Shown: positions 601-37,570 of the stretch, piece by piece
How positions within the stretch are numbered: position 1 is the stretch's first letter
How the letters are laid out: each line of letters begins with the position of its first letter
DNA from: Vulcanimicrobiota bacterium
GTDB taxonomy: Bacteria > Vulcanimicrobiota > Vulcanimicrobiia > Eremiobacterales > Eremiobacteraceae
DNA length: 40,547 nucleotides
Direction: 5' to 3'
Assembly (NCBI GenBank): GCA_013290125.1
Contig: JABCYQ010000025.1
Coordinates: 1-40,547 of the forward strand
Notes under the pieces: generated by a model
Database searches by the model: none
Told to the model about the DNA's origin: nothing
The model's input: only the letters and a program-made list of their open reading frames with translations
Program-made: the position numbers and the translations under genes

Positions 601-1935
601 TTAAAGCTTGGTGAGAGGGTCAAATGGCACGCCGTCCTTGCGTATCTCAAAATGAAGGTGCGGGCCGGTCGCGTAGCCCGTGGCGCCCACCGCCCCGATC
701 ACTTGGCCGCGCTGTACGTTCTGATCCACCGAGACGTACATCGCCGAACAGTGCGCGTAGAGCGTGGAGTATCCGTCGCCGTTGTCGATCGTGATGAGAT
801 TGCCGTAGCCCCCGTACCAGCCTGCGTATATGACACGGCCGTCGGCCGCCGCGCGTATCGGCGTTCCATAATCCACACCGATATCCACGCCCGAGTGCAG
901 GGCGTACCGGCCGGTGTACGGATCGGTGCGATACCCGAAGGGCGACGTGATCGGACCGCGCACGGGCCAGATGAAAGCGACCGGACCGCCGATCGGCGAC
1001 TCGGGCGGCGGCGGGAGCCCGGCCGCGATCGCTGCGGCGCGGCGCGCCGCCGCTGCCGCGCGACGGGCGGCAAGCGTGGCCAGGTAGTCCTCGCGTTGCT
1101 TCTCGACGATGAGCGCCTGGAGTCGCGCTTCCTCTGCCGCGCTCAGACCTTCGAGTTCGACGACTTGCTGGGCAATCACGTTGCGCTGCGCTCGCGCCGC
1201 CCCGAGCAATTGGCGCCGCTCATCAGCTAACCCGGCCAGCTGCTGTTCCTTGCTGGACTGCGCCTGTTCGGCGGCGGCGAGTTGCGCGTTCGCCACTTCG
1301 AGCCCGCGGACGAGTCCCTCGTATCTCGCTTGTTCGGTGTTGATGCCCGCGATAAGTTGCGAATCGGATTTGAGGATCGCGCGCACGAAATCCCAGCGCT
1401 CGACGAAGTCGGCGAACGACGTGGCATCGAGCAGCACGTCGAGGTACGATACGGGTCCATATTCGTAGACGTCGACCAAGCGTTGGTCGAGCGCGGTGCG
1501 ATGCCGGTCGAGACTCGCGCGCGTGGCAGCGAGCTGCGTGCGCCGGATATCCAGACGAAGTTTGATCTGTCTGATCTGACGGTCGAGCTGGTCGATGGTG
1601 GCGTTGACCATGCTGATGCCGTTGTTCGTGTCGGCAAGCTCTTGCGCGATCGTGATGACTTTGAAACGCGCGCCATGCAGCAGAACACGTTTCGTGTGCA
1701 ACTGCGCTTGCGTGGCGTGGATGGCGGCTTGGTTCTGTTTGATCTTCTCGGTGATGGGGACGGGCGTGGGCCCCGCGGCCATGACCGCAACAGCAAGCAC
1801 CGCGATCGCAGCGATTCCCTTGAAGGGGCCGACTTGTCTGAAGGGGCCGGCCTGTCTGAAGGGGCCGACCTGTCGGAAGGGGCCGACTTGTCTGAAGGGG
1901 CCGACTTTATGTCGGCCCTCGTTACGCCACCCCAT
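601..1935 (-). CDS. Secreted M23 murein hydrolase with coiled coil (EnvC/NlpD-like), repeat-extended N-terminus
   Basis: This is a 444-residue protein. Its ATG overlaps the ftsX stop as TGATG, so translation is probably coupled. Residues 11-39 are five translated copies of an 18-bp repeat (V/A-GPFRQ). A hydrophobic signal segment (GIAAIAVLAVAVMAAG) follows, then a long coiled coil (about 60-280) and a C-terminal LytM domain. The zinc and catalytic residues are present: His347 and Asp351 in HSGVDIG, His395 in YAHC, and His426/His428 in HLHFE. EnvC of E. coli has lost such residues and only activates amidases; here the site looks intact, so the protein may cut peptidoglycan itself, gated by FtsEX. 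A start after the repeats would leave almost no signal peptide, which supports translation of the repeats. Alternative: a GTG inside the hydrophobic segment. Confidence 0.85.
   Translation of the reverse strand: MGWRNEGRHKVGPFRQVGPFRQVGPFRQAGPFRQVGPFKGIAAIAVLAVAVMAAGPTPVPITEKIKQNQAAIHATQAQLHTKRVLLHGARFKVITIAQELADTNNGISMVNATIDQLDRQIRQIKLRLDIRRTQLAATRASLDRHRTALDQRLVDVYEYGPVSYLDVLLDATSFADFVERWDFVRAILKSDSQLIAGINTEQARYEGLVRGLEVANAQLAAAEQAQSSKEQQLAGLADERRQLLGAARAQRNVIAQQVVELEGLSAAEEARLQALIVEKQREDYLATLAARRAAAAARRAAAIAAGLPPPPESPIGGPVAFIWPVRGPITSPFGYRTDPYTGRYALHSGVDIGVDYGTPIRAAADGRVIYAGWYGGYGNLITIDNGDGYSTLYAHCSAMYVSVDQNVQRGQVIGAVGATGYATGPHLHFEIRKDGVPFDPLTKL
1822..1918. repeat. Five tandem 18-bp units of repeat family A ending in a palindrome
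   Basis: Units GAAGGGGCCGACTTGTCT start at 1822, 1840, 1858, 1876 and 1894 with one or two changes each. The last unit continues into a stem-loop (GGGCCGAC 1898-1905, loop TTTAT, GTCGGCCC 1911-1918). The 18-bp period keeps the minus-strand reading frame of the M23 gene open. The palindrome is the same core seen at 15842, 20208, 24841 and 37508. Confidence 0.9.
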
Positions 1936-6262: not shown

Positions 6263-6540
6263 CTAATGCACGGTCTCCTACGGCTATTTATGAGCGGGGC
6301 AAGAAAAAAGGCGCTCGATCGTTGCCGGCGCCGCACCCCTGCGCTGGTCTACGTTGCGCTTGATTTTGCACTACGGGCGGCGGGGACCTGCCCGAGAAGC
6401 GCGTCCACGGGACGGGTTATTCGATTTGGGTAAGCGATGCTTGCCCAACTGCGGTAGGGATAAATTGATGTCGATAGTTGGTGGTAATAAAGAAGTAGGG
6501 CAAGCGATGCTTGCCCTACGACTATCGTGACTCGGCGAAT
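6263..6540. repeat. Intergenic region with two family B palindromes
   Basis: The gap between the lipoprotein and the first TonB receptor holds GGGTAAGCG-ATGCTTGCCC (6428-6446) and a longer copy, GTAGGGCAAGCG-ATGCTTGCCCTAC (6496-6520, a near-perfect 12-bp arm palindrome). The second copy lies just after the stop of the receptor gene and may work as its 3' stem-loop. The rest shows no gene; it should contain the lipoprotein promoter. Confidence 0.75.
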
Positions 6541-27334: not shown

Positions 27335-29428
27335 TTATTTCGGCGGAGAGATCCCCAGATATCGATAGAACGCGTCGTAACTCACCGGCCGGCCTAGGAA
27401 ATGCTCGAGCAGAACGTCGGGTTCGTACACCGCGCCAGGCTGCAATATGTCCTTGCGATAGCGCATGCCGGCGATCGGACTTTCCAATCCGTAGCGCTGG
27501 AACACCGTGAACATATCTTGTGCAAAGACGCGCGACCACAGATAACCGTAGTAACCCGCATCGTATCCGCTCATCAGATGCGAGAACGATGCCTCGGGAT
27601 ACGTGCCCGCGATCATGTGGCCGACCGTCATCTGCGAAACGAGCTTCGCCCATAAAGCGTTGGCGTCGACTTTCGGCCCCGAGCTGTGCAGCGTCATGTC
27701 GTACGCCGAAAAGAAGGCCTGACCGGTGTAGTCCGCACCGTCACCGACGTGCTGCAGCGCGACCATCTTCGCGATGAGCGCGTCGGGCAGCGGTTTTCCC
27801 GTCGTGACGTTGCTCGACACGATCTTCAAGATCGAAGGCTGCCACATCCAGTTCTCGAGCATCTGGGACGGCGCTTCGACGAAATCGCCGCGCACATTCG
27901 TGCCGTAGAGCGTCTCGTATGGCGCGGTGGAAAGCGTCGAGTGCATGCCGTGACCGAACTCGTGGAAAAATGTAACGACGTCGTCGTGGCTCAAGAGCGC
28001 GGGCTGTCCGGGCGCGGGGGCCGGCCAATTCCCCACGATCGCTGTCACGGGCTTTTGATACGTGCCGTCCGGCAACACGCGGCCCGGCAGAACGCCGAAG
28101 TTCGCGAAGTGACCGAATTTGCCGTCGCGCGGGAAGAGGTCGAGATAAAACCAGCCGATAGCTTTGCCGGTCGCGGCATCGTTGATCGCGTATTCGCGCA
28201 CGCCCGGAGCCCAGGCATCGGCGGCGGCGATCTGCGTGAAACGCACGCCGAGCAATTTCTGATAGATCGAGAACACGCCGGCGATGACGTGATCCACCGG
28301 GAAATACTGTCGGACGACCTGATCGTCTACCGCATATCGCGTCTTGATGAGCTTGGTCTCGTAATACGCTCCATCCCAGCCAGCGTAAGGTGTCGGATCG
28401 CCCGACGCCTTCTTGAGCGCGACGAGCGTCGCTCGCTCGTACCGCGCTTTCGGCAGCAGCGTCGTATCGATCTGCGTGAGGAAGGCCATCACGCGCGTCG
28501 GCGACTTGGCCATCTTCGCAGCGAGTTGGTAATCGGACCATTGCGCGAAGCCGAGAGCACGTGCGAGTTGATAGCGAAGCGTCACGGCCTGCTCGAGCCG
28601 CTGCACGTTTGCCTCGCCGCCACGGCGGTCGTACGCGAAGTAGTATGCTTTGCGCGCGGCGCCGTCGGTCTCGTTGTCCATGAACTGCGAGTACGTGCTC
28701 TCGTTGACCGGCACGCTATATCCAGCTGCGGTTTTGGCAAGCGTCGCCACGAATGCCGGCGGAAGCGACGTCGCGTCAGCCGCCGATATCGCGATCGCGC
28801 TCTTGTCTTCGGCGAGCGCGCGCTGGAACGCGATCGTGACGCCCGAAAGCGTGTCGAAGAGCTTTGTCACGCGGTCGCGTTGCGCGGGCGGCAAGGCGAC
28901 GCCGGCGCGGATGCCGGACAAGACATACGTGTCGACAAGTTTCTTCGCGGCATCGGTCTTGGCGTCGCCGAGCGCTTGGACGCGCGCCGCGATCGCATAG
29001 ATCTTTGGGTCGGCGTTCAGCGCGTTGAAATAATCCGACAGTTTTTGCTGGCAGTCGTTGGCGGCGTCGCGCACGTCTTTCGTAGGCCCGACCGAGCCGA
29101 GGAACGTCTGCGCCGTCGTGCCGTCGTTGAGCACCGCTTCCGCCGTCTCGATCTGCAGGAGCGAATCGTCGAACGTCCACTCGGGCGCCGAGAGCGATTC
29201 GACCTTAGCGATCGTCGCTTTCGCTGTGGCGATCTGATCGTCGCAGGTCTGCTCGATCTGCGCGGCCGTTTGATGCCATTGCAGGCCGGTTTGCGCCGGC
29301 AAAACGTCAAAGCCCACAAATTGCGGCCCGGGGGCAAGCGAGGCTTGCCCTACTACGGGAGCGGCGAGCGTTGCGAACGAGGCAAGCATGGTGCAAGCGA
29401 CGGCGATCTGAACGCGCGGTGTTTTCAT
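27335..29428 (-). CDS. Secreted M3-family (thimet/Dcp-like) zinc metallopeptidase
   Basis: This is a 697-residue protein. The start is ATG 29428 with GAGG seven bases upstream, followed by a signal peptide (MKTPRVQIAVACTMLASFAT). The zinc site is HEFGH (His489, Glu490, His493) in TFFHEFGHGMHS, with the third ligand Glu518 in DFVEAPSQMLENW. This combination is diagnostic for M3A oligopeptidases, which degrade short peptides. A signal peptide suggests a periplasmic enzyme. The codons for residues 25-34 (VVGQASLAPG), at the likely signal-peptidase site, are a family B palindromic repeat. It lies 23 bases after the CoA-transferase B gene, so it is the last gene of the catabolic operon and could supply amino acids to it. 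Confidence 0.92.
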   Translation of the reverse strand: MKTPRVQIAVACTMLASFATLAAPVVGQASLAPGPQFVGFDVLPAQTGLQWHQTAAQIEQTCDDQIATAKATIAKVESLSAPEWTFDDSLLQIETAEAVLNDGTTAQTFLGSVGPTKDVRDAANDCQQKLSDYFNALNADPKIYAIAARVQALGDAKTDAAKKLVDTYVLSGIRAGVALPPAQRDRVTKLFDTLSGVTIAFQRALAEDKSAIAISAADATSLPPAFVATLAKTAAGYSVPVNESTYSQFMDNETDGAARKAYYFAYDRRGGEANVQRLEQAVTLRYQLARALGFAQWSDYQLAAKMAKSPTRVMAFLTQIDTTLLPKARYERATLVALKKASGDPTPYAGWDGAYYETKLIKTRYAVDDQVVRQYFPVDHVIAGVFSIYQKLLGVRFTQIAAADAWAPGVREYAINDAATGKAIGWFYLDLFPRDGKFGHFANFGVLPGRVLPDGTYQKPVTAIVGNWPAPAPGQPALLSHDDVVTFFHEFGHGMHSTLSTAPYETLYGTNVRGDFVEAPSQMLENWMWQPSILKIVSSNVTTGKPLPDALIAKMVALQHVGDGADYTGQAFFSAYDMTLHSSGPKVDANALWAKLVSQMTVGHMIAGTYPEASFSHLMSGYDAGYYGYLWSRVFAQDMFTVFQRYGLESPIAGMRYRKDILQPGAVYEPDVLLEHFLGRPVSYDAFYRYLGISPPK
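29331..29353. repeat. Family B palindrome inside the M3 peptidase gene
   Basis: GGGGCAAGCG-AGGCTTGCCCTAC matches the palindromes at 6428, 6496 and 37477. On the minus strand it encodes VGQASLAP at the predicted signal-peptide cleavage region. Confidence 0.8.
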
Positions 29429-37476: not shown

Positions 37477-37568
37477 GGGCGAGCGATGCTCGCCCTACTA
37501 CGGTGCTGAAGGGGCCGACTTTATGTCGGCCCACGTTTTTTACGGGCCGACATAAAGTCGGCCCCTTC
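37477..37568. repeat. Family B palindrome followed by a family A double hairpin, between convergent genes
   Basis: GGGCGAGCG-ATGCTCGCCC (37477-37495) is five bases after the stress-protein stop. The family A element at 37508-37568 has a left hairpin, the spacer ACGTTTTTTAC and a perfect mirrored right hairpin. It ends two bases before the larE stop. Together they probably end transcription in both directions; the T-run in the spacer supports this for the plus strand. Confidence 0.9.
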
Positions 37569-37570
37569 AT

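Follow-up and report, generated by a model that had tools for sequence, protein, structure and literature searches.

Repeat-derived N-termini of two secreted proteins

The window, i.e., the whole stretch of 40,547 nucleotides analysed here, belongs to a genome of 2.9 Mb in 55 contigs (G000) that we compared with two sister species of the same genus (G001 and G002). On its minus strand, positions 27335..29428 encode a secreted M3-family peptidase of 697 amino acids (PF01432 in Pfam; 381.3 bits, cut-off 27) that has Candidatus Eremiobacterota MAGs among its closest named relatives and carries an insertion in its signal-peptide region. These relatives make an origin of the window from that group probable. 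The initial annotation had placed an in-frame copy of a palindrome in this gene, and we indeed find one at codons 25-33, differing by one mismatch from the consensus of the 102 copies of its family (hereafter family 1). Positions 29332-29353 read GGGCAAGCGAGGCTTGCCCTAC on the plus strand, and the full unit extends to 29356 (29332..29356, minus strand; coding-strand sequence GTAGTAGGGCAAGC[C]TCGCTTGCCC). In the open reading frame 29428-27335(-), these codons are GTA GTA GGG CAA GCC TCG CTT GCC C and encode VVGQASLAP, with the single mismatch to the consensus (GCA>GCC) being synonymous.

The family-1 consensus is a 25-nt GTAG-tagged palindrome, GTAGTAGGGCAAGCATCGCTTGCCC, composed of GTAGTAG and a perfect 8-bp stem (GGGCAAGC/GCTTGCCC) with a 3-nt loop. 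Across the 102 catalogued copies, which are pattern-search matches in G000 that were read in fetched stretches after removal of double hits, it is sharp over these 25 nt, and the flanks show no conservation except for a pyrimidine-rich 5' stretch. A search of G000 with the 22-mer at up to one mismatch found 59 matches compared to ca. 2e-5 expected by chance, and the reversed pattern gave no match in the same genome. At the same threshold, G001 had 39 hits and G002 had 330 (some of them a palindrome counted twice), with a single hit among 22 more distant relatives. Three further copies lie on the plus strand of the window and are all intergenic as previously described, though the middle one starts at 6498 rather than 6496: a degenerate copy with two mismatches (6428..6449), its tandem partner with an exact core (6498..6519), and the stem variant GGGCGAGC (37477..37501) with genes converging on either side.

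A second, unrelated secreted protein of the window also has an N-terminus written by repeats, as had been noted before. This M23/EnvC-like peptidase (601..1935, minus strand; PF01551 and PF24568) has its residues ~6-39 encoded by a family-2 palindrome (GGGCCGACATAAAGTCGGCCCCTTCA; 1893..1918, minus strand) and four tandem 18-nt units (TGAAGGGGCCGACTTGTC; 1821..1892, minus strand) that are read in frame as (VGPFRQ)n. Both lie between the start of the gene, a TGATG overlap that is conserved in the sister species, and its hydrophobic core. The orthologue of G001 carries a diverged in-frame version of the repeats, and that of G002 has none. The 18-nt units preceding the hydrophobic core are related to the family-2 repeat. 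Family 2 also forms an inverted pair at 37507..37569, consisting of two 26-nt arms that are 100% complementary and adjoin the family-1 copy at 37477.

Family 1 belongs to the GTAG-tagged REPs

Judged by its GTAG tag, stem, loop, and mainly intergenic placement, the family-1 palindrome is a GTAG-tagged REP and thus one of the short, non-autonomous repeats that RAYT (TnpA-REP) HUH transposases mobilise. Like family 1, the known GTAG REPs and REPtrons are palindromes of 20-40 bp with GTAG at one end that are present in many dispersed, mostly intergenic copies, form tandem pairs, provide TAG stops, occur inside open reading frames, and are associated with RAYT genes, for family 1 with RAYT-like genes of a sister species (PMC3733652, PMC2817692, and PMC8266576). 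In addition, its stem of 8 bp and loop of 3 nt follow the layout that has been reported for the Stenotrophomonas REP. Based on gene calls from a home-made gene finder, the 102 family-1 copies in G000 divide into 81 intergenic ones, 10 that overlap the edge of a gene, and 11 within 10 predicted genes.

The association with RAYT-like genes is seen in a sister species: two Y1-type transposase genes of G002 (L145 and L147, assigned by PF01797) have family-1 copies next to them, which at L147 occupy both sides in inverted orientation, though this latter gene may contain a frameshift close to the 3' end. Unlike known GTAG REPs and REPtrons, no family-1-flanked RAYT was found in G000, where the sole Y1 transposase (C26:289) scores 91.8 bits against the NCBIfam model REP_Tyr_transpos (NF047646; cut-off 80) but stays below the cut-off of the IS200 model, and has on its flanks copies of family 2 (GGGCCGACATAAAGTCGGCCC), the second palindrome family present in the window. 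The mobiliser is therefore deduced from the sister species, and mobilisation of family 1 by a RAYT is what these gene neighbourhoods suggest. Further differences from the known GTAG REPs are that family 1 is a new sequence family with a doubled GTAGTAG head and that it resides in Candidatus Eremiobacterota-like genomes.

The RAYT gene of G000 (positions 229-741 of L133:1-830) sits between family-2 arrays, with four copies upstream and three downstream in inverted orientation, and the Y1 transposase of G001 (L146, contig C59) has a third REP family, CGGACCATAAAGGTCCG, on either side, with nine copies upstream and three downstream. Together with family 1 in G002, three REP families are thus seen around Y1 transposases, one per species. 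The third family was also seen fused in frame behind family 1 at two loci (L115 and L110).

Two other classes of palindromic repeats invite comparison. Clustered inverted or tandem REPs as in REPINs or BIMEs are found around the RAYT genes and in family 2 at 37507-37569, but the copy in the M3 peptidase gene is a single REP, unlike these doublets. Rickettsia palindromic elements (RPE) resemble family 1 in being palindromic and tolerated in frame within protein-coding genes, and RPE-1 copies at N-termini have been reported as expressed. However, RPE-1 is described as longer, comes from a different clade, and probably differs in sequence, and family 1 is mostly intergenic (predicted genes contain 11 of its 102 copies), unlike the placement of RPE.

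An insertion specific to one lineage

Comparison with orthologues supports the earlier suggestion that the repeat-encoded residues of the M3 peptidase are an insertion, because residues 25-33 are absent from all orthologues examined. The protein of G000 begins with MKTPRVQIAVACTMLASFATLAAPVVGQASLAPGPQFVGFDVLPAQTGLQWHQ, while those of G001 (87% identical; MTTPRIPTALCAAALSCVIALACARAASAAAMYEMYLPANTGLQWHQ) and G002 (77% identical; MNKHLLGVVSAAAFVLAFASAPLGAIAAPAPETLPPATGLQWHQ) lack VVGQASLAP and have signal peptides that are 7 and 9 residues shorter, respectively. Since both sister species lack these residues, the copy in the M3 gene is a lineage-specific insertion, and since signal peptides evolve fast, its exact boundaries cannot be fixed from these differences (+7 relative to G001, +9 relative to G002).

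Two artefacts could mimic such an insertion. The repeat would be extragenic if the start codon had been misassigned and translation began downstream, which is a known problem of annotation that applies to one of the other genes with an internal family-1 copy (L083) and perhaps a second (L110), and the literature on GTAG REPs cautions that N-terminal copies may reflect misassigned starts (PMC3733652). For the M3 peptidase we consider this very improbable: its signal peptide lies upstream of the repeat and in the same place as in the orthologues, the start of the G001 orthologue is homologous (MxTPR), and downstream initiation would yield a protein without a signal peptide. Even more improbable is an assembly chimera joined at the repeat. 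REPs at contig ends do yield such joins (see L245 below), but the copy in the M3 gene is 11 kb away from the contig end and the orthologous locus of G001 aligns to the flanks of the insertion both upstream and downstream, which argues for an insertion rather than a misjoin or a misassigned start.

Our preferred reading, to which we assign a probability of ca. 90%, is that a GTAG-REP inserted in frame into the signal-peptide region of the M3 peptidase and survived at a tolerant site without having been targeted there. Under this reading, the insertion occurred recently and in this lineage only, with GTAG on the coding strand, and the REP landed at a site that follows the hydrophobic core and precedes the mature protein, adding VVGQASLA(P). 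The gene probably survived because this site tolerates added residues, the insertion left an open frame, and the small, neutral peptide brings a permissible signal-peptidase site of its own (GQA/S); the insertion as such is probably neutral.

The inserted peptide carries a permissible signal-peptidase site that may be used for cleavage, given that A29/S30 (GQA/S) obeys the -3/-1 rule and comes after the hydrophobic core. Its initial description as the expected cleavage site is plausible. It could thus be argued that the REP was exapted, with its phase-0 peptide VVGQASLA supplying the site in use and being kept for that purpose, and the same frame is used by most gene-internal copies of G000 as well as by both copies in a G002 gene (L255). 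We nevertheless regard exaptation as unlikely: A22/A23 (TLA/A) upstream of the repeat equally obeys the -3/-1 rule, the orthologues have their own sites without any repeat, cytoplasmic linkers in which cleavage is not at stake use the same frame, and a signal of selection is not measurable from one near-identical copy.

Intragenic copies favor tolerance over targeting

If placement of family 1 ignored genes, ca. 92 intragenic copies would be expected in G000 compared to the 11 observed. Eight of the ten genes containing them were taken as robust cases (the M3 peptidase, L143, G6PDH, Mfd, a 2-oxoglutarate dehydrogenase/E2 fusion, an MFS-acyltransferase fusion, L117, and L127), while L083 and L110 were left out owing to doubts about where they start. 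In L143, a secreted protein encoded on contig C44, a clean in-frame insertion of 39 nt two codons past the conserved start is absent in both sister species. Glucose-6-phosphate dehydrogenase (G6PDH) carries an in-frame REP (L126:3099-3120; 18 nt net) in a loop between conserved segments; the five relatives and two solved homologues that we aligned lack this insertion. Further copies are located in an acidic linker of Mfd (L118:2920-2941) and in the linker of the 2-oxoglutarate dehydrogenase/E2 fusion. The insertions in the MFS-acyltransferase, the E2 fusion, and L127 are common to G000 and G001. The copy in L117 (phase 1) is REP sequence but was rejected as a clear insertion, lying in a hypervariable loop that has about equal length in several relatives.

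All eight robust intragenic copies have GTAG on the coding strand, and none of them uses the one phase in which TAG would be read in frame. At gene edges, nine copies provide the TAG stop of the neighboring gene. Of the intergenic or gene-edge copies for which the nearest gene boundary is a 3' end, 43 have GTAG on the coding strand of that gene and 17 do not (P 0.001). The supply of stop codons and the composition of the encoded peptide may contribute to this orientation bias.

The M3 and EnvC-like proteins had been taken to suggest that insertion near signal peptides is tolerated or even preferred. The location of the other insertions in linkers, loops, and terminal extensions fits tolerance, and a preference is not supported. 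That REPs insert preferentially in or near sequence coding for signal peptides would seem to follow from nominal counts: signal peptides comprise ca. 1.4% of codons by a crude secretion predictor and received family-1 copies in two of the eight robust genes of G000 (nominal P 0.005), the only intragenic family-2 copy in the sampled sequence is in a signal-peptide region as well, and adding the other families and the sister-genome insertion gives 3 of 11 (nominal P 0.0004). However, these counts include the cases that prompted the question, one of them among the two family-1 genes. Outside the window, a signal peptide is the site of one of eight robust family-1 insertions, which does not amount to a significant excess (P 0.11 if signal peptides are 1.4% of codons and 0.28 if they are 4%).

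The same lack of enrichment was observed out of sample, as stretches around 46 copies in G001 and ca. 210 in G002 (~250 in total) contained no valid signal-peptide insertion. Intragenic insertions in these stretches comprised three shared with G000 and one in a new gene, L255. The lone candidate was L245 on G002 contig C6, an apparent signal peptide with VLGQASLAHP, which we rejected as an artefact: it starts at a contig end, and its first 77 nt (L245:1-77) match a REP array on contig C4 (L300:1501-1577) with 100% identity, probably as an assembly-graph overlap. Two other G002 hits in an ORF of 37 amino acids were spurious, as this ORF lies inside a REP array. Moreover, purifying selection at other sites is expected to produce the same bias as a preference. 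We consider targeting of signal peptides distinctly improbable. The simplest account of the data is a tolerance of non-structured sites together with selection for open frames, and family-1 insertions in genes would accordingly be rare survivors at tolerant sites for which signal-peptide targeting is unneeded.

In L255 (L255:2083-2140; G002 contig C15), two tandem family-1 REPs that are 36 nt apart lie in frame within a linker (VLGHASLAQSKPVLGQASLAQ).

Relation to previous work and implications

In-frame intragenic copies of GTAG REPs at permissive sites and their provision of TAG stops for neighboring genes have been described before (PMC3733652). Intragenic insertion of GTAG-REPs as such is hence already published, and what is new is the family and its clean examples, i.e., species-specific insertions in signal peptides that distinguish our cases from the published ones. 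In our literature searches, no description of signal peptides containing REPs came up, nor any paper dealing with REPs of the Candidatus Eremiobacterota-like group, a little-studied group to which intragenic GTAG-REP insertion is now extended. The orthologous sites without the insert, including those of the textbook 39-nt signal-peptide case, make the acquisition of mobile DNA in frame directly testable.

Beyond the individual genes, it is conceivable though doubtful that GTAG-REPs in this genus are a recurrent source of new protein sequence for signal peptides, linkers, and enzyme loops, in which it became fixed. Should this be true, the phase-0 frame in GTAG sense would supply a ready-made peptide that is compatible with export, VVGQASLAP, and includes a putative signal-peptidase site. 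Some caution is warranted when interpreting such sequences because residues derived from REPs can be misread as conserved functional motifs, and overlaps like the one at L245 illustrate how a REP may mimic an N-terminal fusion in a MAG. The copy in Mfd may be compared with the literature, in which DNA repair genes are often the site of intragenic GTAG REPs.
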